Shown piece after piece: positions 1-64,000 of a stretch of 64,000 nt of DNA. Under the pieces are notes generated by a model. The model saw only the letters and a program-made list of their open reading frames with translations, was not told the origin of the DNA and did no database searches. Location of the stretch: contig VCMS01000089.1 of the NCBI GenBank assembly GCA_022539475.1, positions 224,288 through 288,287 of the forward strand. The letters are read 5' to 3'. A program made the position numbers and the translations under genes. The stretch is from Gracilaria domingensis (taxonomy: Eukaryota > Rhodophyta > Florideophyceae > Gracilariales > Gracilariaceae). Position 1 is the stretch's first letter. Each line of letters starts with the position of its first letter.

Positions 1-897
1 CAACGCCCGAAGGAGTCGGAAACCGAGTACTCGGTACGCCTGAATAAGGCATTCCACCGTTGTGGCAATGTTTACTCCTCAAACGAGCGCTGCACGCTGT
101 TTATCAACGGATTGAATCCGGCTATTCGCACTCTGGTTGCCCAGCGACGGGAAGACCGGAAGAAGACTACCTATCTGGAGTTAGTGCAGTACGCGAAGGC
201 GGAGGGAGACGCCTTGCGCGCACGCACCGGATACCGGGTTTCAACCAAGGCGTTGCACCTCGAAGGAGGGTCGTCATCGGCTTCACTGCTACCGCAGGAC
301 TTTTCTGGCCACGATGTGGATAACTTACATCTCGCACAGGTGGACCTGAATTCTATTCCGACTACGGAGTTGCCTTCTACTTCAGAAGCCTCGTCGAAGA
401 CGGAAGATGCGCTGCTTTACGCAGACCGTCCACGCGTTCGCGGTCCTCAAGTACCCTATTCAGGGAGTCGTTACCAGCGACCTGGTTGGGTAGACCCGCG
501 AACGGTGAAGTTCCAAGACCCACGGAGTTCCGGAAGACCACCCCTGATCTGTTTCACGTGTTACAACCACGGTCATGCAGCTCCGAACTGCAACCTCTCG
601 ATGAGGGAAATGCCCACGGTTGTGGCGAATTTTGAAGCGCTGACCCCCGCCGAACAGGCGTCAGTGCCGGTAACCGCATATCTGCGTGCGAAGGCTGAGT
701 ACCCCCGTAGGGTGTCTGCTGCAGAATTGGCTGCGTTACTGCACTCTGGTTCGACCCAGGTCAATGTTTCACCGGCTCAAGCCGTGGCGGCAACCGCTGT
801 TGCGGGTAGTTCTGTCGCTGTTCCACAGGAATCTGTGAAGATGCCTGCTGCACAGGACGCCGTTCCCGTTAGAACGGATGGAACTCAGTTAAACTGA
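1..897 (+). CDS. Ty3/gypsy element 1 Gag, C-terminal part (runs off left edge)
   Basis: Structural Gag protein that would coat element RNA. The frame is open from base 1 to the TGA at 895-897, so the N-terminus lies outside the window. A retroviral zinc knuckle CX2CX4HX4C is encoded at 550-591 (C-F-T-C ... H ... C), as expected for nucleocapsid. The segment before it (residues matching RLNKAFHRCGNVY) is nearly identical to element 2 Gag around 11880, which confirms the family and the frame. No stops or frameshifts are visible, unlike element 2. Pol follows in the -1 frame with a short overlap (873-897), which suggests ribosomal frameshifting. The identification as gypsy Gag rests on the knuckle, on position upstream of pol and on homology to element 2. 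Confidence 0.9.
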   Translation, partial: QRPKESETEYSVRLNKAFHRCGNVYSSNERCTLFINGLNPAIRTLVAQRREDRKKTTYLELVQYAKAEGDALRARTGYRVSTKALHLEGGSSSASLLPQDFSGHDVDNLHLAQVDLNSIPTTELPSTSEASSKTEDALLYADRPRVRGPQVPYSGSRYQRPGWVDPRTVKFQDPRSSGRPPLICFTCYNHGHAAPNCNLSMREMPTVVANFEALTPAEQASVPVTAYLRAKAEYPRRVSAAELAALLHSGSTQVNVSPAQAVAATAVAGSSVAVPQESVKMPAAQDAVPVRTDGTQLN

Positions 898-12800: not shown

Positions 12801-15800
12801 TTGAGGCTGTTGACGCCCGAGGCGTCGTTGCCTCGCTCCCCGGTGAGAGTCCTCTCGATTAAAGACGCCACAGACACGGATTTGGAGCACCTCGGTGTTC
12901 TGCGTCGACCGTGGATACGGGTAAGGAATAACCGGATCCCGGACCGAATCATGGTGATGGCCAAGCGACACTATAAGGTGTAAGCTGACCTTGGCCTGAG
13001 CCCTCAGTTTATGGTGCGTTACCTGACTGTATTAGACACAGGTGCAGGTCCGAACTTCACCGTGGAGTCCCTTCTCACACGGCACTTGCGGGAACTTATC
13101 CACCACAGCGTGCTTCCTGATGTCGCTGACGCGAATAACAACCCGTTAACAACGGTGGGAACAATCGACTTAGTCATGCGTTTGGGAACTTCCGTGGTGA
13201 GGGCCGACTTCATCGTTTGTCGGTCATTGGCTGTCCCAGTCATTTTGGGTTGCGATTACTGCAACAGGTTTGTCGATGCAATCAGGTCCCGCCTCAGGCG
13301 TGTAGAACTCGACGATGGTTCATCGGTACCGATCGTCCGTCATCCGCCGAAGCGGTCATCGCGGAAGCAAGTTCCACTCCCTGCTGCGCAGGCCCCGTCA
13401 CCGGCGTCGCGCGAGTCCACCAAGCTCCGCGTCGCTTCGTCGATTCGCATCCCGCCTGAGTCCCTCGTTATGGTGTCAGTTAATTCCCGTCAACACGGTC
13501 TTCTTTTTATTCAACCACTTACCTCGTTGTACGAGAATTGCCAACTCGCTGTCACGAATGGTGTTGTGCAAGTCACACCGGATACTCCGTTTCGGATACT
13601 CGTTGCCAATCTTGGCAGCACCCCCCAGTATCTGGTGAAGAACCAAGTCATTGGGTCTGTGACATCGCACCCACTCGCGATGCTTCCGACGAAGATGACG
13701 GCTGCCGATGTCCTCGGACTAGTTACCTCCGAAGAGGACTTCGCCCCATCTAAGGAGGGAGCTGCAGTTCCTGCTGTTTCCGCGGGTACCAATACCGTCG
13801 CAACGGAGAAGAAACCGACTGACTCTGAACCACAGCCTGTGTCGGGGACAGAAGAGCGTAAGCCCACGAGCTACGACAAGGTTGACCCCTTGAAGGCGCT
13901 TGAGGCACTTGATCTCGGTCATGTACCGGAGTCGCACCCTGAACGTCTAAGAGGCATGTTACGGGAGTTTACCCCAATGTGGGATGGCTCTCTTGGAGAG
14001 ATAAATGCAACGTAACACCGTATCGATTTGTTACCGAACACGCTTCCGGTTTCACAACCCCCTTACATGGCAGGACCGAGGGCTCGGGAGGAAGAACAGT
14101 TCCAAGTAGACAAGGTGCTGCGCGCAGGTGTCATCGAACACGCGCAATCGCCGTAGGCATCCCCAGTAGTACTGGTTCTCAAGGCTGACGGAACTTGGAG
14201 GTTCTGTGTCGACTATCGCCGGCTCAATGCCGTGACGGTAAGAGACGCCTACCCAATCCCTCGTATTAACGAGTGTATCGATTCGCTTCGGTGACGCTAC
14301 CGCGTTCACGGCGTTGGATGCCAATTGGGGATACTGGCAAGTCCCCGTCAGGGAGGAAGACCGCGATAAGACTGCGTTCGTGTGCCACTCGGGCTCCTAC
14401 CGCTTCAAGCGGATGCCTTTCGGCCTAACCAACGCACCCGCTACGTTCCAGCGTGCCATCGACATCTTGTTGAGCCGCTTCAAGTGGCTGAGCTGTCTCG
14501 TCTACCTTGACGATATCATCGTGTTTTCCAGTAATCTGGACGATCATCTCACCCAAGTCAGGGACGTGATGACCACTCTGCGTGATGCAGGAATAGCCCT
14601 CAAATTGAGGAAGTGTAAATTCTTCACCGACACCGTCAAGTATCTTGGACATATCATCCGTCCAGGACGGCTGACGATCGAGGACGCTCGCGTCAAGCAA
14701 CTCGCCAAGGCGAAGGAACCGTGAACCCAAACGGAATTACGCTCCTTCCTAGGGTTGGTCAAGGTCTACAGACGGTTTGTACCGAACCTTTCGGACATTG
14801 CGGCTCCCCTCAACGCTCTCTTGCGAAAGGGTCAGCCACCGAAACTGGGCCCCTTCACGCCCGCACAAGCGGAGGCATTCAACTCCTTGAAAAAGGCTGT
14901 TACATCAGCACCGATCCTATCGTTACCAAAACTGGGATTGCCGTTCTCCGTGTACACGGACTCGAGCGACTACCAAGTAGGCTGCGCGCTGTTCCAAACC
15001 ACTCTCGAGGGTACTGGTCACGTTCGCTTAACGTTCATGAACGGGACTACTCCGTTTCGGAGTAAGAGTGCCTTGCAGTCGTATGGGCATTATCCACCCT
15101 CCGTCCCTATTTGCTAGGTGTGCGCTTCATCGTGTACACGGGTCTTCCTCGTTGAGGTGGTTGATGAATATCTCTGACCCATCAGGCCGCTTCATGCGGT
15201 GGAGGCTCCGCCTAGCGAAATTCGACTTCGACGTCGTATACGAAAAAGAGACCCTAAACATTCAGGCGGACGCGCTGTCGCGCTTACCCACGAATGGAGA
15301 AACTCTGGCTGTTGACGACGATGACATTCCTTGCTTCGTCGTCGACGATGATGAACCGGAACCCCCGGAGTGGCGGCTTGACGAATGGCCAGATGACTGG
15401 GACGATATGGACGCTGAGTTTGATGAACTGCTTGTTGCAGGCAAAGCCGAGGATGTAAAGCTCCTACCGGGAAATTTTGTACCGGTATCACCCGAAGAAA
15501 TGATCCGAGAACAACATGGAGACCCGTTCTGCATCACGATCCGTGCCCGACTTAACGGTGAAGCCACCCTCCCATTCGAGGTCAATGACATCGGCTACCG
15601 TGTAAGGACAGTCGAGTCACACCGACAAGTTGTGGTACCACACTCGCTGCAGACGAGGATCCTACACCTTTCGCATTACGCAAAGTTAGGTGGCCGCGCA
15701 GGTGGAAGAAAGTTGTACCTCACCTTGAGGATAGACTTCTACTGGCCCGCCATGGCGGTGGATTGTTAGGCTACGGTACGCTTTTGTACCGATTGCGCGA

Positions 15801-18163
15801 GAAAGCGTGTGAAACACCGAAAGAATTCGAAGAAAGTGAAACTATTCCCTGCCAGGGTGCCGCTTGAATTTGTGGCAATCGATATTCTCGGACGATTGCT
15901 TACCGCTCGGAGTGGAAATAAGTTTCTTCTCGTTATCACGGATCGGTTCCCGAAACTGGTTCGGACAGTACCTCTAAAGAGGATCACCGCTTTCACAGTC
16001 GCGCAGGCGTTCGCCACACACTGGATCTTCGTGTACGGTCCTCCTGTGGAGTTGTTATCCGATAACGGAAAGCAATTCGCATCCCAGTTCTTCCAGGATG
16101 TATGTCGCATCATGGACGTGAAGAACCTCTTCACGACCACTTACCATCCCCAATGTAATGGGGAAGTTGAACTGTACACTCGTACGATGCTGGCATCTCT
16201 CCGTTCTTACGTTGTTGACCACCCAAAAACATGGGACTTATACACCGACGCCTTAACCTTTGCGTACAACACGCAGGTACACAGGACTACTGGTGTTTCC
16301 CCATTGAAACTGGTTTTGTCACGAACACCCCCGCCATTGGCGTTAGAATCACAAGCTACCTTGGGCAATTTCACATCTGTGGGTGATTATCGCCAACAAT
16401 GGAAGGCTTCGCTAACGAAGTTAGTACCGGCTGCCCGGAAATCGATGGCGAAAGCCCAAGCCGCTTACAAGCGCGATTTTTATGCTCGCTTGCGAAGAAG
16501 AACCCCTGAACCACTTACTGTGGGCAACCATGTCTTCGTACGGAAGGAACACTACAACCCTGAGAAGGGCAAAAGTCATAAGCTCTCGCCTGTGGCAGAT
16601 GGATCTTATAAGTTAATCTCGCTCACACCGGAAACTGTGGTGGTCGAGATCGATGACGCACATCAGCGAATCTCCCGCGACCGCGTGGTATTGGCCCCTC
16701 CATCCTCGTCTGAGGTTCCCCCGCCTGGTACAGAGCCCGTGTCTACAGAGTCAACAACGCCAGTAACACCGGAAATAAATATGGTGACAAGACCCTCCGT
16801 CCTGCCCCACCCCCATCGAGACCTTACAGACCTCCCGGTAGAGTCGGCCCCGCCGACTGTGTCGGAAAATGATCGCCAACATGGCACCCCCGTTTCTGTC
16901 CCATCGCTGGGTTCACCTCCCTTCAATGCTGGACATTCAAATACTCCCCACGCCGCTCCATCTAAGGAGGCGGAGGAGATTATCAGCCCTGCTGAGAGTC
17001 CCTTGCCGACGTCGCGTCGTGAGGACAACCGTGAAGCACGGACTGTACGGAGCTCTCCGGATGTTCCGGCCTGTGGGCCGGCTTCGCCTCCGCAACGCAC
17101 GCTCGCTAGTCAGACACACAGCCCCGTAGCCGGGAAGTCTACACCGTCGAAGGGTAAGAACACTCACGCAGAAGCGGATTCGCTTAAGTGAACAGAGCCT
17201 CGTGGCCTACCAGCCGCGCTGGGTAAGGCGAAGTTGAAGGATGCCGTCGCCACCGGGGCGACGTCGTCGGAACGAAGCCCCACTGGAGAAAGCGCAGCGA
17301 GATCGCGACCCACCGCGCAACGGGATGCAGAACATCCAGGAAGTCTGGAAAATCCTGCGGAGAGGCACGAGCTGAGGGAAGAGAAGTCCCGACTGCCTCG
17401 GTGGAAACCGGCAGCACAGCCGTGGGAATACCGGACACTGCGGGAAGATTTCACGTCATGGACGGTACTGCACCAAATACTGGAAATGAAATATCGGCAC
17501 AAGTGCAGCCACGTGGGGAGATCGCGAGATCGGAAGCGGCCGGCGGTGCCGATAACCCCGGTAACCCGGAAGTAACCGTTCAGGACGGAATTTTGAGCAA
17601 ATAAGCTCAAGGGCCAACGGCGCAACCGTTGGAGGACACCTGTAACAGGGAGGCGGTTCTTCTGAGGGAGCTTGACAGCCAACCGTAGCTACAATCTCGT
17701 ACACGCACGGTTGTAAAGCCACCCGAGGTGGAGCCTCCCGCCGCAAGTGGTGAGCACGCAGCTTCGCCAACACCGCTGAACCGGAAGGACCCACGCCGAC
17801 TGGCGGTACGCAGCGACATTTCGAACGCGCCTCGACGGGAGGAAACTGGCCACGCAGAGACAGGCTCGCTCTGCTACCCCCGGCACGGGAACCGCTCCCC
17901 CACAAGGGTTGTCAGCCGATGAAGTAACCATAACACGGCAAGGCCGGCAGGTGTACGTTCAAGAGTACATCTTCGACCGAATTATCGGGCACTTCTGGGA
18001 CCAGAAGGGCATTTTACAATACCACCTCCGTTGGTACGGCTATGGCCCATCGTGGGATACTGAAGAACCAATCGAGCACGTACCGCGCTCTGAGGTCGTA
18101 CAGTACCCCCGCCAAGCGGGAACGGCCACACCAGCGACGCTGGACAATGCTCAAGTGGGATAA
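12801..18163 (+). pseudogene. Gypsy element 2 Pol with chromodomain, multiply broken
   Basis: Same domain order as element 1: protease (LDTGAG near 13033), reverse transcriptase (YLDD near 14508), RNase H, DD35E integrase (IDILG, SDNGKQF, CNGEVELY), a GPY/F-type module (DGSYKLI) and a C-terminal chromodomain at about 17950-18110 (HLRWYGYGPSWDTEEP). Visible lesions include stops at 12981 (TAA), 14013 (TAA), 14155 (TAG), 14722 (TGA) and 15767 (TAG), a frameshift near 14290, a frameshift or deletion near 15010-15060, and several breaks in the linker at 17190-17900. The chromodomain keeps the aromatic WDTEEP motif, where element 1 has a Ser/Asp variant. The number of lesions shows this is much older than element 1. 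Confidence 0.9.
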
Positions 18164-45646: not shown

Positions 45647-46800
45647 CTACAACTTCACTGTACGATTCAGAGCTTTCCCAACGGCGACAAGGACTTCATC
45701 TCCGACATTGAAACGACGAGCATGCTCTGAGTCATCCTGGCGACTAGGCTGCATCGCAACACGCGTAGCAGGCTGAAGAAGAATGGCTAGTAACTCGAGA
45801 CGGCGTTCGAACAGCATGGCATCTTCAATCGGAGGAATAGGATCCGTAGGGTGCATGCGGGGAATTGTACCGTACATTAACAGACACGGAGAGAATCCTC
45901 CAACCAATTGGCGGCGGCGGCAGCCATAAACGACTTGATCTAAATCCATGTCCCACTCTGAACCTTCGTTGAAGATAGTTTTAGCAATGGCGCGTTTGAT
46001 CGTTCCAACCATCGTTTCGGCTCTGCCATTCGACATTGGAGCGTACTCGAGAACAGGCTTCAGTTGAATTCCATACTTTTTAATAAGTTCTCGAATCGAA
46101 CCAGGCAGAAAAGAGTTAGCGTTGTGAAACACAATGACACGGGGCGGACTAAAGTGAATGATGATCTCTTTCTTCACGAAATTGAGAACGACTTCTGAGG
46201 TCGAATCTGGGGTAGCAATAGCGATAGGCCAACCAGTCAAATGTTGTACTTCATTGAGAAAAAAGCGTTTTCGAGAAGTACTAGTAGGAAGAGGCCCGGC
46301 AAAGTCCATTGAGAACGTATCGAAGATGTTTGTCAGCGAAGCTCTCTGATCCGCTGGGTTCAAGATCACTGGAGCCATCAACTGATATTCTACGCAACTC
46401 TGAACATACTTGTGAACATATTCATGGATGGTGGGATCCAAGAGAAGCGATCAACTAAGAAATTACTTGTGGCGTCCTTATCCCAACTTCCGACTTCGTC
46501 ATGGAACATTCGAATCAACGCAACACGATCACGAATCGGGGAAGAAGACGAATTCCATCGTTCGTCCTGCAAAACAGGACGTCATTTCAAACAACAGAGT
46601 GCTTCGCGGCACGCTTGACACCACTGCGAAATTTCGTGTCTTTCTCATCCATCTCTAGGATGCAAAGGTAGCGGTCAATGTTCGCATAGTAGAGCTCGAT
46701 GCCTTCGAATTCCGAGAAGCCAATCGAAGCGACCAAATCCACTTCTTCAACGGCGTTCTCTTCTTCTTGAGGGTCTAATGCATTACGAATACAGGTTGGT
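45647..46800 (-). pseudogene. Gypsy element 4 integrase, zinc region and core
   Basis: An open frame of 264 residues (46441-45647) holds a retroviral integrase core. First Asp in SMDFAGPLP; the second position reads FHNANSF where SDNG is normal, so the second catalytic Asp is replaced by His. The Glu is kept in SNGRAETMVGT. Upstream (46390-46800, other frames) are NDVLFCRTNDGIRLLP and FHDEVGSWDKDATSN, the usual lead-in and HHCC region, with a stop. It belongs to a gypsy lineage distinct from elements 1-3. The lost Asp and the upstream breaks make it inactive. Confidence 0.75.
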
Positions 46801-52280: not shown

Positions 52281-52788
52281 ATTCCGGGACTATGTCGTCA
52301 AAAGGATCCGTGTCGTCTCCCCGCGTCTCAACATTCGGCGCTGAATCAGAGTCCGTGTCGCTGCTGAAGGATATTTGACGTCTGTCTCTTGCAGATGCTA
52401 GTTTTTGGCGAGGGTCGTTCAGTAAAATTTTTGAAAAAATATCGAGATCAATTATTTCAAAATTTGAAGATAATTGCTTGGGGCGTCCAGAATCGCTGTG
52501 CAGTAAATACTGGTGGGTTTTCCACTCGTGCTAGTTCTTTAGTCGAGGGCTACCTGAACGGTATTTCGCGAAGTCTAGGTTCAGTTTCCTTTAAGGTGCA
52601 CATTACACGATACCTTCTGCGGAATGATACCCTGCAACGCATGGAATACTGTTGCTAGTACAGATGATGTCCATTATGAAATCATACCGTTTTATTCTTA
52701 TCTATTCTTCTATCGACCGCTTTTGCTAACCACTACTTCGCTATATTACATGTACCATTTCCCCATGATGAAGCGGGTGTAGGCGCAA
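52281..52788. other. Region without supportable genes
   Basis: Short frames without recognisable family. An AT-rich tail is seen after 52670. Confidence 0.35.
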
Positions 52789-52941
52789 TCTGCGGCAGAT
52801 GCCGCAGAGGGCACCTGCACCAAAGTGCGGTATCGGTAGAACAAATATGCACTCCGAGAGGATGAGGCTCGAAGCGCCTCATCCTCTCCGTTCCTCATGT
52901 AGGGAACCATGCCCAGATGCATGGTTCCCTACTTGAGGAAC
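52789..52941. repeat. Cluster of three strong hairpins
   Basis: Hairpin 1 at 52789-52808 has 8-bp perfect arms (TCTGCGGC). Hairpin 2 at 52856-52888 has 13-bp perfect arms (GAGAGGATGAGGC). Hairpin 3 at 52890-52941 has 23-bp arms with one mismatch (GTTCCTCA...GGGAACCATGC). Hairpins 2 and 3 are separated by one base. Confidence 0.85.
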
Positions 52942-52982
52942 CTGCACCTGCAACTCGTGAGCTACGTCCGCATCAAAAGTCA

Positions 52983-53725
52983 TTTACCTGTATACGCAAG
53001 CAGAAAGTATCCATAAGTTATTCAATGATCCGTTGGATACATTTGAAATGCGATGGAATGTACCATTGATAAAACAAAACAGAAACGTTGCGCTAGAAAA
53101 GTCGAGGGACCTAGTAACTCGCAAAAGGAAGAAGAAGCAGGAAAGGGATCGGTTAGATTACCAGCCCACCATCATCGTAAAGCGCGAAAGGTGTCGAAGC
53201 GAGAACTCACAAGCAAGGACACCAAGAATGCCCATGCAGCAAACATACCGCAAGATGCGATAAACGAAAGAGCAGCCTATGTCCCAACCAAGCACCAGAA
53301 TCGCCTATCCCGAACAGTCAGACATCGATCTTGAGAGACGAAATGAAATTGGTCGTTTACCTGTATACGCAAGCAGAAAGTATCCATAAGTTAGTCATTG
53401 CTCCGTTGGATACATTTGAAATGCCATGGAAGCTACAATTGATAAAGCAAAACAGAAACGTTGCGCTAGAAAATTCGAGGGACCTAGTAACTCGCAAAAG
53501 GAAGAAGAAGAAGGAAAGGGATCGGTTAGATTACCAGCAATCCATTCAGCATAAACCGCGAAACGTCTCGAAGCGAGAACTCACAAGCAACGACACTGAG
53601 AATGTCCATGCAGCAAAAATACTCCAAGATGCGATTAACGAGAGAGGAGCATATGTCCCAACCAAACCAAAATCGTCCATCCTGAACACTCAGAGATCCA
53701 AGATCGCCAAGAAACCAACTTGGTT
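52983..53725 (+). repeat. Direct tandem duplication, unit about 370 bp
   Basis: Copy 1 (about 52983-53337) and copy 2 (about 53356-53725) both begin TTTACCTGTATACGCAAGCA and stay alignable throughout, with some indels. The offset is about 373 bp. Copy 2 keeps an open frame of 135 residues (53331-53738), rich in Lys/Arg (RKRKKKKERDRL). Copy 1 is open in different frames over its parts, so protein coding is doubtful. Confidence 0.8.
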
Positions 53726-53726
53726 T

Positions 53727-53811
53727 GTTGCGCAATAGGCTCTAGCTTCTCGCGTCTTGCGCTACTTTTGAAAAGTAGCGCAAGAGGCGAAGCTAGAGCC
53801 TATGGCGCAAC
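53727..53811. repeat. 85-bp imperfect palindrome
   Basis: Arms of about 41-43 bp: GTTGCGC(A)ATAGGCTCTAG..., a 5/3-base internal mismatch, then TCTTGCGCTACTTTT meeting AAAAGTAGCGCAAGA. It lies directly after the tandem duplication and contains the stop codon of its copy 2 frame. Confidence 0.9.
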
Positions 53812-54408
53812 GAAATGAACCATTGTTCGCGTACTTACAGCCGTCGCTTTGGGTTACCGAATTTCCGTTTTCACCCTTCAACTCGTTCTATATCTTGAAC
53901 AAATGGAAGAAGTTGAAGGTCATTAGCTTATTTCCTGCCGTTTACATGTCGCAGAGCGCGAAGAAACGCGGTGAGGATTGGTTAGTTTAGAGCAAAGATA
54001 CGTGGAAGGATATGGAAGAACGTACGAATAGACTGCACGGAATACATCCGTGAGATACGGATGACTCCGTCCTACTTTTTTCCGCCCTCTGCTTTAAGGA
54101 GCCTCCATAAAGTAGAGGGAGGAAAAAAGAAGGACGGAGCGGAGTATAACGCGAGGATGTGGATGGCACGGATCACGACGGTAGCGGCAGGTCGGACGTC
54201 GCAGGCGCGGCGGCGGCGGCGGAGGGAAGAGATTTATTTTTCTGTGTGAGATTGGACAGGTGTACAGCGTATAACGTTGGAAAACCACAGGTTTATAAAC
54301 GGTGGTAGATATTACGAGAAGTACACCCTTGTATTGAGGTCGACGTGTACCTACGTTCCTTTTTGAAAGCACGTGATTTAAACTCAAAATATATTCTCCG
54401 TTCTCAGC
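53812..54408. other. Upstream region of the transposase gene with long hairpin
   Basis: At 54067-54139, CTCCGTCCT.CTTTTTTCC.CCCTCT.CTTTA faces its near reverse complement across an 11-bp loop (arms about 31-33 bp). A (GGC)n run lies near 54208. This is the expected place for a promoter or the left end of the transposon. Terminal repeats matching the right-edge repeats were not found here. Confidence 0.55.
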
Positions 54409-57400
54409 ATGACGTCGATCTTGACTGTCGCTCGACCTCCTTCTCCCTTCGGACGACCTTCCCTTGCAGTCTTTGTCATCGTTTCTCGTTCATTTCTTCT
54501 TCCTATGGTCTACTACTGTACACATAAGAAGCGTGGGTGCCCCTTCGTTACTCGCCGAGGAGTCTTATCTCTTCAACAGCATGTCAACCATTGCCCTTTT
54601 CGTCTGAAAGCAGCGCTGGAAGACGACAATAGGCGGCCCATTCGGAGAAGCAAGCGTCTCAAGCTTTCCGCACCCGCGCCCGCATCTTCCGAAACGGTCA
54701 CTGCCCCTTGTCGCCTTCCCGAGCCTCCGGTGTCCGAGGACATCGTCGACCCCACTCCGTGCGCCCGTCCCATTCCGGACACTTCCCATTTTGTTTCTCC
54801 TTCCTTGGGTCCCGCGTCATTAGAGCGAGAACACGGAAGCAGTTCCCGCCCAGTGCCTTCTGAGGAGGCCCTCGGTGATTTGCATATGGATTATCTCACG
54901 GTTTGTCTGGCTTCAGTAGCTTCCAACCTTGGTCATCGTGAGGCAGACGAGCTAATTGGGCTACTTCGGGACCCGCGATTCTCGCAAAAGCGATTCAACG
55001 AGACCATAACAAGTTCCAAGCGCTGGACAGAACTGAAGAACGCCACTTTCGAACGATACGCCTCAAAGGACGGTTTCAATCGAAGAACTGTCTCGCCAGA
55101 AGGATGTAAGTTCAGCGCCACCCTCTACACGAGAGACCCCGTTCAGACACTTGTGAAACAGCTCCAGTTGGCTAACAACGAAAACACATTCTTCCACCCT
55201 ATACCTCGGACCCACTCCACGAAAATATCTCACCCCATGTCCGGCTCTCTCGCAAGAGACGCCACCTCAAAACTTAACGAAATGGTCATGGGCTCTTTGG
55301 ATAGTAGAATAGTGTGGTACTTCCAAGAAATAAGTTACAGTGAATCTTTCGTAGGTCTTCTGCAGGTATACACCGATAAGTCTTCAACAACTCTAAAGCA
55401 AACATCGGTTACCGCCTATCCTCTTCACCTCATATTTCTCAACTTCTCCGACGAGCTACGCCGTAAGTGCATCCGTGATGACCTCACAGTAGTGGCATAC
55501 TTCCCTACTACACTGATCGAGGTTTCCGCATCTGAAGCAGACGCAATGCCATTTGTTTCTAGCAAGTCTCTACGCGAGTCCAGGATGCAAATCCTTCAAG
55601 AATCTCTTCGTCAAGTCCTGGAGCCCATTCTAAATCTCACGCAGAAAGGTTTTCAGTTCATCGGGGAAGACAAACTAAGTCGAGTGTGCCATCCTCTGCT
55701 TGCAAGTTATTGTGCGGATATTCCTGAGGCTAAGGACATTCTGTCCATTCTTCATGGGACCAAAACGGAAAGCCCGTGTCATAGATGCAAAGCCCCTCGC
55801 TCATCTTTATGCAGTCCTATTCCCACCTCATTCAACGGACGTTCTCAAAAGCACACGAAAAGCATCCGAAAGACATACACAGCTATCTTGCAACATGCAC
55901 AAAAAGACGAGGCGGAAAGACGTCCACGTCGTGCGAGGGAGAGGAGATCTCAAGCGGATACTCTGATGCGTTCAAATTCCATATCTCTCATTCCTTCGTT
56001 CCTCGAAACTTCCGTAAGCCTTGGAATGATCCCGGGATTGTCTCCATACAGTCTGTTCTCATTCGAACCATTACACAACTTGCATCTCGGCATCTCAAAG
56101 TTGATAAAAACGGCCACAATCGAGAGACTGCAGTCAGACACCCTGTGCACCACAATAGGAACATCTGCATCGCGTTTATTTCGAACGATACGCACCCAAC
56201 TCCTCAACCATGCAAACGCAATTCTAGCTGCCATAGAACGCGATTCTCCTGCCAAAGGTTTACATATCGATTCCTCCACGCAGGAGGAAGGCAAATCTTT
56301 GAATGGTATCTTCACGAAAGACGGTCTCCGTGGAATGCTGGAGGCCAAAAACTACAAAGCACTTGACATGGTCTTTCCCTTCATAGGAGCATTCTTTGAC
56401 ATATGCTGTGGAGAACAGGACGTTGCCCCAATCACAACCGTTTTCTCTCAGTACTCGGACTTGCTCTCGACCTTATTCAGATACAATCGTGACCCGTATT
56501 GGACTGAAAGCTCTCTCCTGTGTTTTAGTTCGGAGATTGAAGCCTTCAAGCGTTCCGCAACAAAGACTCTGGCGGATTTTCATCCCTCCAGACTGGGAAC
56601 TCTGAAGTTTCATCTTCTCGATCATCTCGTGGATGATATTCCCCGTCTGGGAAGTATCAAGTACTACGACGCAGGCATATACGAACATGCACACCTGCTA
56701 TTTAAGAGACACTACAAAAAGACGTCGAGAAGAACAGCAACGGCTGTGGAGGAGACTATTCGCTCCATTGAGCACGGACATGTTAGAAAGCAATTGAATG
56801 GCAATGCTCCTTACCAGCGTAATCCAGGTTTACCAGGAACTTCCACACAGCTTCCTCGATTTGCAATCAGAGGGAGTTCTTTCACTTTACGAGCTCTTCA
56901 ACATTGTTTTCAAGTATGTCCAGTTCAAAAACATGGACTGCTGCTAGAGAGATGTTGTCAAGTACAGACACAAGGTCGATTCTTGACCAAATTGGTGAAC
57001 AGGCCCTTCCTCCTTTCCTCAGTCTCGTGAAAGAAACATTGGATGAGCACTCTATTACATACTTCCCAGAAAAGATAAGGATAACTTTGGTGAATTCGGC
57101 CCTCGTGAAAGGCGGTTTCGTTCCGACTCTTGAACACTTCGATTCGTCTTCTAAGGCACTTAAGCTGGGACGACCCAAATACCCCATCATCCAACGAGTC
57201 TTCGCTTCTCCAGCATTTGGTCCCAGTAGAAAGCCAAAGTTTTCCACTGTATTGGTAAGCGGAGAAGATTCAGAGACTTGGGTTGCCCAGGTAGTCGCTC
57301 TGATTCGAATATCGCTCCTTGATTCTGCACTTACCGCACCAGAGGTGGCATTCGTCCGGTATTTCGAGGTTTTACCCCCCGCAACAAACACCGACCACAT

Positions 57401-57683
57401 ATTGAAATGCATATCTTTACGGTGGGCTACAAACGATGAAAAGAACGACACTCTTCTGTTCCCTCGTCATTCCAAAGCGGAGACTATCGTAGAGTTAACT
57501 CCTTGGTACGGGATGGTTCCGGCTTCTGCACTACAGGGAACTGTCCATGTTGTTCGATCAAACTACCCTGCTCCACCTTTTTGTCCTCCACTTCAATGGT
57601 TTCAACACCAATTCTACATAAATCGATTCTATCATGATTCAGATGAAGGACCAACTGAGCACGTTGATCCTGTACAGCCTTAA
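54409..57683 (+). CDS. Plavaka-like (CACTA-related) transposase, with frame changes near its 3' end
   Basis: DDE-type transposase. The frame from ATG 54409 to 57030 encodes 873 residues; an alternative ATG at 54505 starts just before the zinc finger. The N-terminal C2H2-like finger (C37, C44, H58/H61, C62; QQHVNHCPF) is typical of the family, and a basic stretch RRSKRLK follows. Core signatures: LLQVYTDKSSTTL at about 317-329 (first catalytic Asp probably D323), AYPLHLIFLNFSDELR, ADIPEAKDILSILHG followed by CHRC (457-460), and FEPLHNLHLGISK (552-564). Around 56810-56960 the best reading moves to another frame (LYELFNIVFKYVQF) and then to 56904-57683, ending RFYHDSD...VDPVQP. Introns or frameshifts must lie there. 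It converges with the minus-strand gene ending at 57680. No stop interrupts the first 2.6 kb. Confidence 0.8.
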
Positions 57684-59843
57684 ACATTAAGGGCTCCATC
57701 CTCTACATGTTCACCTTGTGGTGTCTTTCCTTGTGATCCTGTGCTACTTCCGAAATCGTTCATGTCCATTTCCTTGAACTCCATATCCCCTTCGTCGCAT
57801 TCACCAACAAAACAATCGCTAATAGAACCCAATCTTCGGCTCACGCTGTCAATAAAAAATTGTTCTTTCACAGTAAGGTAAAGTCTTCCGTTCGACGGCA
57901 TTCGATATCCAAATGTAGCCTCTCTCATGTCATTACCAAGAACCTTAGTCCAATCATCCGTTGTCGTTCCAAAATTATGAAACTCGCTGGAATTGGTCCT
58001 GAAGACACGTTGCCTAACATCCCCCAGAACATTCTTTAAGCACAGAGGTAGCAGTTGGGCAAACTTCTTTGTAAACAGTTTCTGTCTCTGGCCACCCCTT
58101 GACACATCCGTACTTAGAAGGCTCACAACCGTCAACACCCAAGCATCCAAACATGCGAGCAACAGTATTGTGCCATCTAAAAAGGTGCCCGTATCCTTGT
58201 CTTTCACATCATACCCATTAAACTCCTTCAGTAATTGTACCCCGACACGGTTTCGGAAGAACAAGTCTTGATCTTCCGTCGGCATATCCTCGACATTGTC
58301 CGCATTGGAGTACTTTAGACGAACAAATGGGGCTTTTCTCCACCATAAAGTGTTCGGTACACCATTTTCGTCAAGACGCAGTATGTTCTCCTGCGCTTCC
58401 TTCAACTGCATTGTGAGTTCGTCAGTATTCTCTTCTACCAGCTTTGTTCTTCTCCAAATCAGATCGTACCCCAGGAGCAGAAATAGTTTATCCCTCGTAT
58501 TTCTCTTCCGAACGCCCACGACGTCACTCATGGTCTGCCGCATTCTCTGCCTAAGGCACATATCTGCACAAAGTCCCAGTATACACCTGTCAGTAAGAGA
58601 TGCTTTTCTAATACCTTCCCAGCTCAACTCCTTCAACTCGCTTTCAACCATTTTCTTCAGCAAAGCATCTGGCCCCCCCCTCTACCGACAGTGTGAACAT
58701 GCCAAAACTGCCCAAGAGCTCCACGGGGGTTTTAGGAACCATGTATGAACCACCTTCCTCCGGCTCAATAAGCCCTTCCCCACTCTCAGTTGCGTCTTCC
58801 ACCTTCTCGGCACGGTTACCTCAATTTCGGGTGAGCGACTCACCTTCGAGCCATATCTCACTTGTTTCTCTCCTTGCCCACGTCAGCATGTTGTGATACA
58901 CTGCTCGAGAAACCCCTCGAAACTCGTCGCACACCTCAATTTTATGCTTCTTTCGACCTGTCTGCACAGGTTCACCAGCACGTGTACTCCTATCTCCCTC
59001 CTGTTTCAGTGCCCCCCTTAGCCCTTCAATGACTAGATCCTTCTCTTCAAGCCTCCTTTTCAAAGCCGTACTCTGCTCTTGGGCGACCTTCACTAGAATA
59101 CCCCGAACCATCAAGTCCTCTTGTACCGTCTTAACCATTTCTTTCAAGCAATTCAGTTCATTTAAAAGATCAAGTCTGTTCATAGAGGTTGAATTCACAC
59201 CAGTGTCGATATCTTCCGGTATTTCCCTAGCCTCTTCGGCGACAGGCCCCGGTAATGCCGCATGATTCGGTGTTATTTCGTTATCGGAACTATCCTCATG
59301 TGCCATACCCTTAGACACGAGAGGCTGCAGGCGTTCTGTGTCCACCCTTGGCACGGCTCCGACCTCCAACTCCCGTGTCTGTCCTCCTCCATGGCATCGT
59401 ATATCAGATGAATTGGGCCTCGTACGAGCTGCAACGGCCCCCGTTCTGGAAAGAGAGAAAGGTCGAGGAGTAAATCGTCTATCAGTTGTCTTTCGATTTC
59501 TTATTGTCTTCCTCCCTTGTCCGCACCCATTGCGAGGCATAATACGATTCAGAGCGGCCCCAGTTCTAGAAGAAAGAGAGGGACGTGACGATCTTAATAT
59601 ACTAGGGCTCTCACGACTTCTCGTCATTGTCTCTTGTTGTCCAAATCCACTGGGCGGCGTAACCCGCGCCCCAGTAGCTCCGGTCTTCGATATCGGCCGG
59701 GGACCTGAAGATTTTGGTGTCATAAGAACCTCTTCAGTTCCAGTTGTCATGCCCTCCTGTCCTGACCCGCTGGTCCGAGTTATCTCATCTTCTGGAGGAG
59801 CAGAGACAGATGCACGATTTGCATTATCGGCAGTTGACGGCAC
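57680..59843 (-). CDS. Repeat and coiled-coil protein of the transposon, probably one intron
   Basis: Two minus-strand frames, 59843-58821 and 58663-57680, can be joined by an intron at 58843-58669. The donor is AAG|GTGAGT and the acceptor CCAG; it is 175 nt long, removes a TGA and restores the frame (WLE then DALLKK). The N-terminal part has three tandem 40-residue repeats (59771-59412; each starts S/N-G-x-G-Q and has RP...S.TGA). A coiled coil follows near 59190-58980 (LNELNCLKEMVKTV, ALKRRLEEKDLVIEGL). The C-terminal part is helical and acidic at its end. No known domain. The true start is uncertain: 59843 is not an ATG and the frame is open back to 59990. It may be an accessory DNA- or transposase-binding protein; that is inference. 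Confidence 0.55.
59412..59771 (-). repeat. Three tandem 120-bp coding repeats
   Basis: Three 40-codon units with the common pattern G-x-G-Q ... RP-x3-S-x-TGA-x3-R-x2-P. The repeats are strongly diverged in between but exactly equal in length. Confidence 0.8.
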
Positions 59844-59994
59844 GACATCGTTCGCTGATCCACGAATTCTTGACGCAATCCCGGAAGACGCTCCGCTGAG
59901 AGATGGGCGAGAGAGTACTGTAGAAGGACGCCCACTGACTCTCTCCTTCGTCGAGGACGACTTCCGTTTAGGAAGTGCGGTGCTTGTAGCCTAA

Positions 59995-60315
59995 TTCGCA
60001 TCATCCGATGCTCTTCTCTTCTTCTGTCCACTCTTGTTCCGCTGCGTACTATTTCGCTTTCTCGGCTTTATACCTATGTTGTGGAGATAAACGGGGTAAT
60101 GAAACGATATTGTTCGGGGGTGGGGGGGGGGTGCATGGTTCAGATATTCCGGGAGACTCCGCAGTTCCTGCTTTTTAGGAATTTGAGGTGCCCAATGGGT
60201 CGCAAATATCGCCGCTACAAATAGATGAAGAGCTCCAATGTACATGTACAACGCGTATTGCAGGCAGCTGCAACATTCACAACCATATTTACTTTCTTTT
60301 CGGTACTGACCTCAT
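59995..60315. other. Intergenic region between the two minus-strand units
   Basis: Contains a G-run (GGGGTGGGGGGGGGG near 60117). On the minus strand an 86-residue frame (60251-59991) ending in a Lys/Arg-rich tail lies in the same frame as the downstream gene across one TAG and could be its first exon. Promoter elements are not evident. Confidence 0.4.
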
Positions 60316-60981
60316 CTATTGCTCCAATGTCAGAGCCCAGTCCGAGGCGTACTGCTCTCCGTAGTTGAAATACAACTCTTCGCTCCTCTCAATATCTCGT
60401 ACTGCTCTACAACGAAGTAGAGCATAGTTAGAAAGGCCGGACTTAAACTGTATCACGGACTTCGCTTCCACCATCTGCACATTGGCACTTCGAGTCCTGT
60501 TTGAGCGGGGCTGCGATAAATCGGGATCCCCGGCATGATATCCGGCGTCGTTAATGTAACCCCCGATACAAAAAGGCGCCGGGACAATGTACACTTCGCT
60601 CTCCTTTCTATCCTGAGCCTGTCCTGGTCTGTTCCTCAGGTGCAGAAACTCCGTACCAGTCACAGTGACCATCATAGAAAACAACTTGTACCGCACTGGA
60701 GTTGCTCCGAGACAGCCACTTCCATACGTTAAGTGTCTTTCCTTCCGGTTCGTCAGATCCGTGTATAACAAAGTTCCATAAAAATGACAGATAGTTTCCC
60801 CAGCCAATATCTTATGTTCCGTGAACACCCCCATACCAGCACGGGGATGTCGAATCTTAGAAGATGCTACATGTAAGCGATTGGCTTCAACAGTCAACAG
60901 CATATGCATATCCATTAGATTCAGAGCTCCTCGGTACTTCTTCTCCCAAAGATCTACAGTATGCTGTCCACTTGTCGACAA
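60316..60981 (-). CDS. SET-domain methyltransferase module
   Basis: SET domains transfer methyl groups from S-adenosylmethionine to protein lysines, usually on histones. Visible motifs: AGMGVFTEHKILAGETI (SAM-binding G-x-G, residues 48-64 from 60981), GYINDAGYHAGD (place of the NHS motif, here NDA, 141-152), and EELYFNYGEQY (catalytic Tyr region, 201-211). The first ATG in frame is at 60915; 60981 is a TTG codon. The module overlaps the end of the DNA methyltransferase frame by 29-95 nt in another frame. An intron beginning GTAGAT near 60964 and ending TTGAAG near 60892 (about 73 nt) would fuse the two in frame (TAY then SNRLHV). So this may be the C-terminus of one protein rather than a separate gene. 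No post-SET cysteines are seen. Confidence 0.8.
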   Translation of the reverse strand: MSTSGQHTVDLWEKKYRGALNLMDMHMLLTVEANRLHVASSKIRHPRAGMGVFTEHKILAGETICHFYGTLLYTDLTNRKERHLTYGSGCLGATPVRYKLFSMMVTVTGTEFLHLRNRPGQAQDRKESEVYIVPAPFCIGGYINDAGYHAGDPDLSQPRSNRTRSANVQMVEAKSVIQFKSGLSNYALLRCRAVRDIERSEELYFNYGEQYASDWALTLEQ

Positions 60982-61963
60982 AGTCCCAGTCCTTCCAGTA
61001 TCTTCCTAGGAACTGAGTAATATGTGCAGGCATAACTTGGTACTGGGGGTATCCAAATGGAGCCTCCCATTCAAGCCGACCTCGGTCCCGATGTGGAACC
61101 CGTTCATAAGTCGTTGAAGCCGCATCCAGCACCTCCTGTTCAACCAGGATGTCATTCTTCCCCCCGCGAAGAACTTCGGCCATAAGAGTCGTTATATGAT
61201 GCTTCGCATGGCTGAAAAATGGCCTATTCTTCTCGCACCCCAAGAACTTCCTATGCTTTGTCAGCGATAGGCACGCCATACTCGTAGAAAAAGTTCCCGC
61301 GAACATGTCCATGACAAGATCACCCGGTCTTGTGAAGCGACATATCAACTCTTTCATCAACTCCCTGGACTTCTGCTCCGGTCTTATGTACTGCCCACTT
61401 GGTACTGAACTACCTGGCTCATTTACCTTCCATGTCAACCACTCCCCCGCTCTCGGTTTTGGCACCCGGTCAATTACATTCCTGTTAGCCGGGAAAGTAG
61501 AAGGAATGAAATTGTTCTCCTGAAATGGAGTAGGACTGGCTTCCTCGGATGGTCGCAATCCACGCTTCACCCCATGAACGGCGTACTCCGTTACGGGCTG
61601 TATCCCAAACTTCCATGGATTCCCTCCAACATTACTTCGATCCCGGATGAACACTAGTGGATTCGCATCCACTTTAAACAAAGGCATGAGTTCTGATTTA
61701 CCTTCGCTTCCAGCTTCATCTTTCGTACTCGCCGTTTCCGAAAGTATCCTGTGCCAAACATGAAACTGTGCCATGGCACAGAATATAATGAAGTGCCCAC
61801 CTGACCGAAGCGCGGAACGTATTAAGTCAGCCGTACGGATCATGTCATCCTCACTGAAGACATCGTGAGCACTATTCCGTTTGTTCCTCTTCTTTCGAGT
61901 GTTAAAGGGAGGGTCTGTTAGGACAAGCTGTGCCTCACCCCATAAAATCTCACTCTTACTCAC
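60887..61963 (-). CDS. Beta-class DNA amino-methyltransferase (N6-adenine or N4-cytosine)
   Basis: Bacterial-type N6_N4_Mtase fold. Catalytic motif IV, TDPPFN, is at residues 16-21 from 61963. The SAM-binding motif I region DLVMDMFAGTFSTSMACL (215-232) follows, with GCEKNRPFF after it. The order motif IV, target recognition, motif I is the beta class. EQKSRELMKELICRF before motif I is the usual KP..L...I region. DPPF suggests an exocyclic amino group as target; the choice between adenine and cytosine cannot be made. 61963 is a GTG codon and part of a perfect donor-like GTGAGTAAG, so it is probably not the start. The frame upstream is continuous except for two TAA codons that an 84-nt intron (62041-61958) would remove, joining MDK to SEILWGE. 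Typical eukaryotic DNA methyltransferases (DNMT, MT-A70 with DPPW) look different. Confidence 0.8.
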   Translation of the reverse strand: MSKSEILWGEAQLVLTDPPFNTRKKRNKRNSAHDVFSEDDMIRTADLIRSALRSGGHFIIFCAMAQFHVWHRILSETASTKDEAGSEGKSELMPLFKVDANPLVFIRDRSNVGGNPWKFGIQPVTEYAVHGVKRGLRPSEEASPTPFQENNFIPSTFPANRNVIDRVPKPRAGEWLTWKVNEPGSSVPSGQYIRPEQKSRELMKELICRFTRPGDLVMDMFAGTFSTSMACLSLTKHRKFLGCEKNRPFFSHAKHHITTLMAEVLRGGKNDILVEQEVLDAASTTYERVPHRDRGRLEWEAPFGYPQYQVMPAHITQFLGRYWKDWDFVDKWTAYCRSLGEEVPRSSESNGYAYAVDC

Positions 61964-62038
61964 AAACGTTTAGTGTGTGTGCTTCAGGTCCTTCATGTCA
62001 CAATTGTACGCTACAAAGTGTGACTTTCTCATCCCCTT

Positions 62039-63151
62039 TTACACCTTGTCCATATTCATTCGAAGGAGACTGGATATCCCCTTCATGGGCGGCTCAATAC
62101 CAGTCTTTTGGATGTTGTACCCGGCAACCCGAGATTCATGCTCCGCAATATTCATCGGCTTCTCGAAGTCGTCGCTATCGGAGCTCACGAGGTTCATATA
62201 CTCTCGACGAGGTGGGGGTGGGGCAGACTTGGGCGAAGAAGGTTCGGCATTACCGGAAGTTTTAGGGGTTTTCGTCAGTTCAATATCAGGTTTCGCGTGA
62301 ATGCCGACATGGAACCCTGCCGCATGACGCATATCCTGTATCGGTTTCCATAGCAACTCCGAAAACTTCTGAAATCGAGCAGGCAACTCACCGGAGTCAG
62401 AACCAGATACGGTATCCATCCGTATCTCCGAAAACTCTATCCAGGTCCTCATCTGATCAGCTCGTAAGCTATAGAGGCTATCGTGGGTGCATATGGTTTT
62501 GAGGTCTGTCAAAAATTCCTTAGCCAGTATTCGGAGGTTTGTATCGCATTCATCACCCAAGGTCTCCACCGATCCACTAGTACTGCTCTGTGGCACATCC
62601 TGTGTGTTGAATCGAGTACTCTGGCTCGGCGGGGCATAACCAGACTCCCGTGTCTCTAGTGCTGTATACTTCAACGTCTGCATATTCATGTAAATGTATG
62701 GTTTCACCATGTGCTGAACGTTCGTGTATCCAAGATGAGCCGCAAAACAACTCCATGCCCATACGACTTCACTGATAGCGAATCCCAGTCGATCACAGTT
62801 GTCTTTGGAGAACGACGTAAAAGTGGGTATGTACAAAGATGGTGCATGGTTCACTTTTCGTTTCTTTTTCGGTTGTTTCCTCTTCATCATTCTGATGTTG
62901 TCGTTCTTTCCCATTATGTGGCCGAGGTATGATAAGTATATAACGACCTCAAATGGGTTCACAGCTGTTGCTGGGATGAACACTGTCGTCTTCAGAACCT
63001 GCTTTCCCCTGGTCATGAAATAACCAACCAGGCATCGCACCGGTAGGTATATACCCATATCCATAGAGAGAAGGAAAAAATCGCGGAGTCTCTGGTCCTC
63101 ATCCCCGTCCTTCTTTTCAAGAAGCTTCGTTACAAGATATCGTTGTTCCAA
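62039..63151 (-). CDS. N-terminal region upstream of the DNA methyltransferase, unknown domain
   Basis: A 370-residue frame; 63151 is a TTG codon, so the frame probably continues from the preceding ORF. It contains hydrophobic helices (VLKTTVFIPATAVNPFEVVI), a nuclear-localisation-like cluster (MMKRKQPKKKRKV), a helical middle, and a Ser/Pro-rich acidic stretch (SPKSAPPPPRREY) before the methyltransferase. It is in the same frame as the methyltransferase. No domain is recognised. It is most likely the N-terminal half of the same polypeptide. The basic cluster suggests nuclear action, as expected for a chromatin or DNA methyltransferase. Confidence 0.6.
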   Translation of the reverse strand: MEQRYLVTKLLEKKDGDEDQRLRDFFLLSMDMGIYLPVRCLVGYFMTRGKQVLKTTVFIPATAVNPFEVVIYLSYLGHIMGKNDNIRMMKRKQPKKKRKVNHAPSLYIPTFTSFSKDNCDRLGFAISEVVWAWSCFAAHLGYTNVQHMVKPYIYMNMQTLKYTALETRESGYAPPSQSTRFNTQDVPQSSTSGSVETLGDECDTNLRILAKEFLTDLKTICTHDSLYSLRADQMRTWIEFSEIRMDTVSGSDSGELPARFQKFSELLWKPIQDMRHAAGFHVGIHAKPDIELTKTPKTSGNAEPSSPKSAPPPPRREYMNLVSSDSDDFEKPMNIAEHESRVAGYNIQKTGIEPPMKGISSLLRMNMDKV

Positions 63152-63447
63152 ACAAACATGTTATTCACAAAACTCTTTCGCAGCTGTTGCAGTGTCAAGT
63201 TCTGCAGGTTCTCGGAGTTAGTGGCCTCCTCAAACATCTTCCTTGCCTCCGGAATATCTTTATAGTTCTCGGCGCAGAACTCTATCAGCCCTCTAAACCC
63301 CACCTCCCGTGGCCGATCAGGGCCTCCATCGCTGTTTGCCAAAGCATCGCGAAAAACCAAGAAAAGTCTGACATATGCATGGAACGCCGGAGGCGGAGCA
63401 CTCATGTCGATAGGATGTATCTCCTCTCCATCATCGGTGGAATCCAT
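63130..63447 (-). CDS. First coding segment of the methyltransferase unit
   Basis: ATG at 63447; 105 residues, acidic start (MDSTDDGEEIHPIDMSAP) and helical body. It overlaps the next frame by 22 nt. A 44-nt intron, GTGAAT...CGAAG (about 63171-63128), would join KSF to LLEKKDGDEDQ in frame. A basic, Arg-rich frame upstream (63737-63450; RRYRTRSKRHGHRPQ) may be 5' leader or a further exon. Confidence 0.5.
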   Translation of the reverse strand: MDSTDDGEEIHPIDMSAPPPAFHAYVRLFLVFRDALANSDGGPDRPREVGFRGLIEFCAENYKDIPEARKMFEEATNSENLQNLTLQQLRKSFVNNMFVWNNDIL

Positions 63448-63743
63448 CGCTTCAGCGCAAACAACGGAGGCAAGCCTTTAAATGGCGACTTACGCTGGGC
63501 ACTCCCGCTTTCGGCAGCTCCTCCCAGGGCACTGCCAGTCTCGTCCGTGTCCGTGTTAGCTCCCTTCTGAGGTCGGTGTCCGTGGCGCTTCGAGCGGGTG
63601 CGATATCGTCGCGTGTCGGCCACGTCGCGATTCGGAGCTATTGCAAAGGTCGCGTATTGTGCTAAAAGTAGCGGATCAAGTGGGTGTGAAGCGCTAGTTT
63701 TCTCTAGTTTGATATATGTGCACGGCGTGTGCAGCAAAATCGC
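63448..63743. promoter_or_regulatory. Probable promoter/leader of the methyltransferase unit
   Basis: It lies between the first ATG (63447) and the terminal inverted repeats. No TATA box in a convincing position is seen. Assigned by position only. Confidence 0.3.
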
Positions 63744-64000
63744 TGCCGGAAGTGCCGGGAGGAGTGTTTTGGGAGGTCTCCGGAGGGTGCCAGAATGTGG
63801 CCAGAACGTGCCGCGGGCGGGTGGGGTCGGTCGTGTTAGGGTAGACCTCCCAAAACACTCCTCCCGGCACTTCCGGCACCCACCGCGTCACCTCAGTGGA
63901 CCATCCCGGAAATTAGGGAGTGTCTGGAGGGTGGAGATGACGGGATGGTGCACTAAGGTGACGCAGTGGGTACAGGAAGTGCCGGGGGAGTGTGTTTTGG
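63744..64000. repeat. Array of inverted repeats at the right edge, probable transposon terminus
   Basis: Arm a at 63744-63779 (36 bp, starts TGCCGGAAGTGCCGGGAGGA) has a perfect reverse complement at 63843-63878. A second pair, 63879-63908 and 63941-63970 (30 bp, 27 matches), follows at once. At 63973-64000 a further copy of arm a in its original orientation (27-28 bp, imperfect) is cut by the window end. The layout is a, a', c, c', a. It is typical of subterminal repeats bound by transposases, or of stacked miniature elements. Confidence 0.8.

Follow-up and report, generated by a model that had tools for sequence, protein, structure and literature searches.

Transposons that carry single epigenetic enzymes are already known (e.g., PMC12730594 and PMC5890265). 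Among them are the fungal Plavaka and KDZ elements with TET/JBP genes (PMC12730594), which have in common with the locus described here a Plavaka-type transposase, DNA-modifying epigenetic cargo, and 2-base-pair (bp) target duplications. Our locus lies in a 64,000-nucleotide stretch of DNA from Gracilaria domingensis (the window; C89:224288-288287 of a 77.9-Mb, 680-contig assembly). A well-supported reading is that the window holds the decayed and truncated remains of one member of a family of large, cargo-carrying Plavaka-type DNA transposons, whose cargo includes a DNA amino-methyltransferase joined to a SET domain. A fungal context, considered for this DNA at first, was mistaken, as the host is a red alga.

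Besides the difference in host, the fungal elements carry TET/JBP genes (PMC12730594), whereas the cargo here is a methyltransferase-SET protein and gave no Tet_JBP Pfam match. Two features of Plavaka membership were found, namely, the PF18759 domain and, for the family, a 2-bp target duplication; that of PlavakaB is given as 2 or 3 bp in the available text of PMC12730594. The termini are another matter. PlavakaA has TGT..ACA and PlavakaB has CATCA..TGATG according to the same text, compared with CGTCTGT..ACAGACG here, and because our termini differ from both, we file the element under neither.

Other described systems resemble the locus in part. The HarbingerS and MuDR elements of Phytophthora, which are mentioned in PMC12730594, are likewise DNA transposons carrying a SET histone methyltransferase, but they belong to other transposase families, and that mention places no DNA methyltransferase alongside SET. 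Retrotransposons of dinoflagellates and charophytes (PMC5890265) are also eukaryotic mobile elements with a DNA methyltransferase; theirs are C5-cytosine enzymes, with no SET domain mentioned in the available part of the report, whereas ours is an amino-methyltransferase in a DNA transposon. The N4CMT protein of bdelloid rotifers is, as described in the accessible portion of PMC8885841, another eukaryotic PF01555 enzyme fused to a chromatin domain, but it is a host gene with a chromodomain (a reader), whereas the protein here is transposon encoded with SET (a writer). The Plavaka giant repeats of Amoebidium have database hits that include red algae; their named cargo is tyrosine recombinases, and a methyltransferase-SET protein goes unmentioned in the text available (PMC11244446). 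An EnSpm-Plavaka family has been noted in a green alga (PMC12633428). DIRS elements with a Dam-like methyltransferase differ in domain content, as the element frames that we scanned gave PF01555, PF00856, PF18759, and PF08282, with no tyrosine recombinase, reverse transcriptase, or Dam-type domain among them. A search of open-access titles and abstract openings turned up no transposon described as carrying a methyltransferase-SET fusion.

The fused methyltransferase-SET protein

The first-pass annotation had proposed a beta-class DNA amino-methyltransferase with an adjoining SET domain on the same strand, and had advised profile searches of both. These searches bore out both domains on the minus strand (Table 1), and the window matches to PF01555, PF00856, and PF18759 each exceed their curated Pfam cutoffs. 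The annotation had taken the two domains to be back-to-back genes, however, and that part has to be given up, since intact copies hold one fused frame. Six distinct intact frames (27 loci examined) unite an N-terminal region, the methyltransferase, and SET. In the copy on contig C164, the methyltransferase occupies positions 516 to 753 and SET positions 883 to 1042 of one 1055-codon frame, with ~500 domain-free residues ahead of them. In the window, decay has left this fused gene as a relic in four pieces.

Table 1. Features of the element copy in the window, in window positions
Feature	Position	Strand	Details
Element part inside the window	52379..64000	-	3' part of the element; aligned to C164, C257, C465, C171, and C597, main blocks ~95-97% identical
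3' terminus	52379..52401	-	CGTCTGTCTCTTGCAGATGCTAG in the plus-strand reading; forms a short, imperfect inverted repeat with the 5' terminus CGTCTGTGTTCTGCAAAGTGG
Subterminal direct repeats	52979..53698	.	Two copies of ~349 bp, 88.8% identical
Plavaka-type transposase gene	54409..57683	+	PF18759, 6.9e-19 (54409-57030); two frames, 54409-57030 and 56904-57683
Third gene	57680..59990	-	Two pieces, 57680-58663 and 58824-59990; no Pfam match
Methyltransferase-SET gene	60316..63447	-	Four decayed pieces in the window copy; single 1055-codon frame in intact copies
SET domain	60316..60981	-	PF00856, 1.6e-7
Beta-class DNA amino-methyltransferase domain	60887..61963	-	PF01555 (N6_N4_Mtase), 4.9e-17; TDPPF, then DMFAGTFST
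N-terminal half, ~500 residues	62039..63447	-	Pieces 63130-63447 and 62039-63151; no known domain
Intergenic region whose inverted repeats differ from copy to copy	63448..64000	.	Separates the methyltransferase-SET gene from the divergent gene; internal

Within the frame, TDPPF precedes FAGTFS, which is the order of the beta class (PF01555 with DPPY/F before FxGxx). We take TDPPF to be the catalytic DPPY/F motif and FAGTFS to be the S-adenosylmethionine-binding FxGxx motif. TDPPFN was retained in 28/28 and FAGTFS in 27/28 aligned copies (from 30 loci), and the C-terminal tyrosine motif of SET reads ELYFDYG or ELYFNYG in all six intact frames. A six-sequence methyltransferase profile matched eight solved chains, including MboIIA, CcrM, RsrI, and a chain named DpnA, over only ~40 to 65 positions. 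By name, the solved enzymes closest to it are adenine-specific methyltransferases, plain methyltransferases, or modification methylases. The product is predicted to be N6-methyladenine (6mA), the DPP motif presumably being a pointer to N6-adenine specificity. For the SET part, the best profile matches were EZH2 and SETD8/KMT5A chains, over ~37 to 65 positions.

We compared the six intact frames in 15 pairs by pN/pS, which relates non-synonymous to synonymous change. It was 0.51 for the N terminus, 0.17 for the methyltransferase, 0.28 for the linker, and 0.26 for SET (36 non-synonymous and 41 synonymous SET changes summed over pairs), values that are an indication and not a test, given the shared ancestry of the pairs and the low counts. 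The intact methyltransferase-SET frames are thus apparently constrained. Five distant homologues (P0001 to P0005) share 28 to 42% identity with the fused protein. SET is recognized by Pfam in two of the five, the fused architecture is kept in P0001 and P0003, and the ~500-residue N terminus aligns in P0001, P0002, P0003, and P0005 and is mostly missing in P0004. Searches of viral contigs gave three weak relatives, covering the methyltransferase part only, and bacterial genomes gave two relatives, both from Phycisphaerales.

The explanation that we favor for the whole, with somewhat better than even confidence, is a Plavaka element whose fused protein marks the element's own DNA and chromatin against silencing. 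Such self-marking is the most likely role of the fused protein, a role inferred wholly from sequence. The methyltransferase would add 6mA to element DNA, the SET domain would methylate a lysine in the histones of the same chromatin, and the paired DNA and histone mark would keep the element expressed and mobile despite host silencing, with the Plavaka transposase mobilizing the whole unit. Bacterial-type DNA amino-methylation is contested as a eukaryotic epigenetic mark, and a multicopy seaweed element with constrained-looking frames bears on the question. If the favored explanation is true, the fused writer would couple two chromatin-marking layers directly and physically, and would reveal how epigenetic machinery can be invented by transposons and spread with them. 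It would then also be the first enzyme known to us that writes on both DNA and histones within one polypeptide.

It is also possible that methylation times or targets transposition, if the transposase or a host factor distinguishes methylated ends from newly replicated, half-methylated ones. Dam methylation controls the bacterial transposon Tn10 in such a way, and the enzyme here is an amino-methyltransferase of bacterial type that shares its element with a transposase. The SET domain in the same protein would be superfluous for this purpose, however, and we consider such a timing function rather improbable. Alternatively, the unit could be a silencing writer like bdelloid N4CMT, repressing older copies and thereby limiting host damage or competition. 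According to the available text of PMC8885841, the bdelloid enzyme, which combines PF01555 with a chromodomain, deposits N4-methylcytosine on transposons, with the maintenance of silencing as its proposed role; the EZH2 and SETD8 matches of our SET profile would fit a repressive function as well. But the enzyme here is the product of an element gene and not of a host gene, and constraint seems to act on its intact frames, which makes a silencing writer unlikely in our estimation.

Gene arrangement, ends, and dispersal of the element

That the methyltransferase-SET unit belongs to a Plavaka-type mobile family is very probable. Alignment of five other copies shows that the Plavaka, third, and methyltransferase-SET genes form one repeat. 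Across the genome, we scored 114 of 770 candidate matches for the methyltransferase, 123 of 672 for Plavaka, and 122 of 631 for the third gene, and the methyltransferase and Plavaka counts given below are among the matches listed. At least 17 of the 114 methyltransferase matches have a convergent Plavaka match 4.1 to 5.3 kb downstream, and none of them has a same-strand one within 9 kb downstream. Because it recurs across copies, the arrangement is not a matter of chance, and the convergence with a Plavaka-like transposase seen in the first-pass annotation holds well beyond the window. We infer that the two Plavaka pieces of the window belong to one gene and that the two third-gene pieces likewise belong to one gene. 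In other copies, a 1100-codon open frame encloses the Plavaka match, and open frames of up to 869 codons surround the C-terminal part of the third gene in stop-free copies.

The 5' part of the element is missing from the window because the contig, which is 288287 long, ends at window position 64000. The inverted repeats on the right, initially read as the border of the element, are internal, since other copies run on through them. The 3' end is sharp, with three copies losing the match at the identical base. Of 40 listed matches to a query of 298 end and 2 flank bases, 21 leave at the end and 10 leave one base later; the remaining 9, the query's own place included, reach the last base of the query and are therefore uninformative. 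The 5' end is sharp in three copies as well, and on C38 it lies at C38:41482. Together, the ends form the short imperfect inverted repeats CGTCTGT..ACAGACG. With at most one mismatch, a 3' 19-mer was found at 546 genome places and a 5' 21-mer at 559, compared with 0 for reversed-pattern controls. Matching termini, for which a search had been recommended, thus recur across the genome, with ~550 of each end.

Ends and cargo also go together. A same-strand 3' end lies within 12 kb downstream of 20/26 methyltransferase matches on C1 to C65, and an opposite-strand one was found for none. For end pairing, we used the first 100 places of each terminus list, which gave 46 properly ordered pairs on contigs C1 to C63, compared with 11 wrong-order same-strand neighbors within 30 kb. 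The C164 copy holds both ends and the methyltransferase-SET unit in ~18.8 kb and carries a deletion relative to other copies. The copy at C8:278212-298361 has both ends, the 2-bp duplication AC, and a Plavaka match, and its 80-base slices match the dioxygenase-like region of the divergent gene (see below), the N terminus of the fused protein, the methyltransferase, SET, and the third gene. The first 8 bases of the 3' flank differ in 11/11 methyltransferase- or SET-bearing copies read, which argues for dispersal and against segmental duplication. Along with the 20/26 matches that have a 3' end, these 11 different flanks sustain the core claim of the first-pass annotation, a Plavaka-type element carrying a methyltransferase and SET unit.

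A 2-bp target duplication flanks 11/25 end pairs examined (P of ~1e-7 against 1 in 16). By length, it was present in 6/6 pairs below 11 kb, 3/7 at 13 to 15.4 kb, and 2/12 above 16 kb, the last being within chance (P of 0.17). Chimeric assembly or recombination of long near-identical repeats may lie behind this loss of the duplication with length.

Several candidate ends were rejected. C42 had been considered as a full element with long terminal inverted repeats, but its left end is the inverted 3' part of another copy, with its Plavaka region. C38 had been considered in the same light; its left 200 bases match the 3' end, and we apply the same explanation by analogy. A break common to C171 and C164 is not the 5' end, as other copies continue upstream of it. 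Two further observations concern related ends. At C164:43501-49500, an inverted stretch ~72.6% identical to the 5' end of the element has a similar terminus and is perhaps a diverged sister family. On C171 (L047 3785-3808), another end, of the type ...ACACAGACG, stands directly at an internal point of the element, where a related family was apparently inserted.

Divergent gene, other cargo, and shorter copies

The divergent gene joins a DGxHR-protein end to an HxD..H..R region, in one frame in several copies. Three full-length distant homologues (P0009 to P0011) keep both the DGxHR and the dioxygenase-like parts. Three annotated G. domingensis proteins match an element frame at 86 to 94% identity, and the annotated models P0007 and P0008 leave out a portion of the dioxygenase-like sequence. 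The residues D-G-x-H-R are invariant in four aligned sequences; P0008, left out of that alignment, reads DDLHG, without the DGxHR residues. Library matches of the DGxHR part were all sub-threshold, to DndB (0.042, 2/4 sequences), BrxA (0.005, 1/4), and GmrSD_N (0.16, 1/4), and we take DndB and GmrSD_N to be members of the ParB/DndB superfamily. In the dioxygenase-like region, H, D, F, a distal H, and R are invariant in four sequences, with no Pfam or meaningful PDB match. A TET/JBP identity was considered for this region and is unsupported, with no Tet_JBP Pfam match even at a maximum E value of 10, and searches of the divergent protein against PHROGs and NCBIfam were uninformative. The names DGxHR and dioxygenase-like therefore rest on motifs, as library and structure support is sub-threshold.

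The divergent protein may edit or remove marks, as is thought for TET/JBP enzymes in other transposons. In that case the element would carry a two-sided system, in which a fused 6mA and histone writer and a divergent DNA-mark editor jointly maintain its chromatin state. We offer this extension tentatively and would not expect it to hold in full. Further upstream, in the 5' half of the element (C164 copy), HAD-hydrolase-like frames lie on both strands. The same half of that copy also shows an oxidoreductase-looking frame, picked out by eye and without a Pfam match. Both kinds of frame are apparently metabolic-looking cargo.

A number of observations weigh against the self-marking explanation or the regularity of the unit that it presupposes. 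A Plavaka match lies within 12 kb upstream, instead or as well, for 4 of the 114 methyltransferase matches. In-frame stops, counted by eye, are present in 36 of the 114, and pN/pS is 0.35 across 24 distinct cores of the methyltransferase, a set that takes in decayed ones; the pairs of intact frames, as noted, are not independent. Among the homologues, P0002 and P0004 have a diverged SET-like end with no Pfam match and without the C-terminal tyrosine motif, and P0005 is without SET. Target duplications, which the first-pass annotation had suggested looking for, exist for the family but hardly for its unit-bearing members: of the eight end pairs in which the methyltransferase or SET is known to lie, only one has it (P of 0.40 for at least one by chance), on C8 and not on C34, C50, C41, C38, C164, C51, or C23.

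Shorter copies add to these points. A listed methyltransferase match is contained in 0/34 end pairs of up to 15.4 kb, compared with 5/12 longer ones, so that shorter copies are probably without the methyltransferase-SET unit. Among three copies sampled by slices besides C8:278212, the unit was seen in none. The first, C8:427896-438223 (10.3 kb, with the duplication, ten slices), retains the stretch at the 5' end together with a portion of the Plavaka gene. It has lost some sequence around the HAD-like and dioxygenase-like genes, and from a point immediately upstream of the methyltransferase gene it passes straight into the Plavaka C-terminal part; this copy is an internal-deletion derivative. 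The second, C6:458664-480015 (21.4 kb), skips the unit and has a retroelement insertion, recognized by eye from slice translations. In the third, C41:35032-48790 (13.8 kb, L125-L134), 6/10 slices match no reference. The first-pass annotation had held that copies of the transposase lacking these genes would speak against its proposal, and the shorter copies, which probably lack them, partly bear this out.

The lengths of the 46 end pairs cluster at ~10.1 to 11.2, 12.4 to 15.4, and 19 to 23 kb, which suggests that particular shorter derivatives have been amplified on their own. As a separate observation, C41:35032-48790 possibly has the same family ends around other cargo.

These copies bear on a further alternative, namely, that the unit is a passenger, a set of host or foreign genes that a cargo-carrying transposon has picked up and kept although they play no part in its life cycle. 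The sampled short copy that has a duplication lacks the unit, and the HAD-hydrolase-like frames show that the element carries other, apparently metabolic cargo, both of which would be expected of a passenger. On the other hand, pN/pS is low over the enzymatic domains (the 0.17 and 0.26 given above), and the fusion is kept in the distant P0001 and P0003. We give the passenger reading the lowest probability of the alternatives considered and retain self-marking as the favored role.

Other mobile sequences were seen in the genome and elsewhere in the window. A second Plavaka group, with examples at C12:68428-69198 and C22:687175-687954, covers profile positions ~106 to 317 and has frames that reach 1110 codons. 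The window itself gave no matches in Rfam and tRNA scans. On the plus strand, window positions 873-6446 hold a 1858-codon stop-free frame with reverse transcriptase, RNase H, integrase, and chromodomain, presumably the polyprotein of a Ty3-type retrotransposon. Integrase-core matches below the Pfam cutoff at window 15770-17188 (+) and 45650-46450 (-) are probably the remains of older retroelements.

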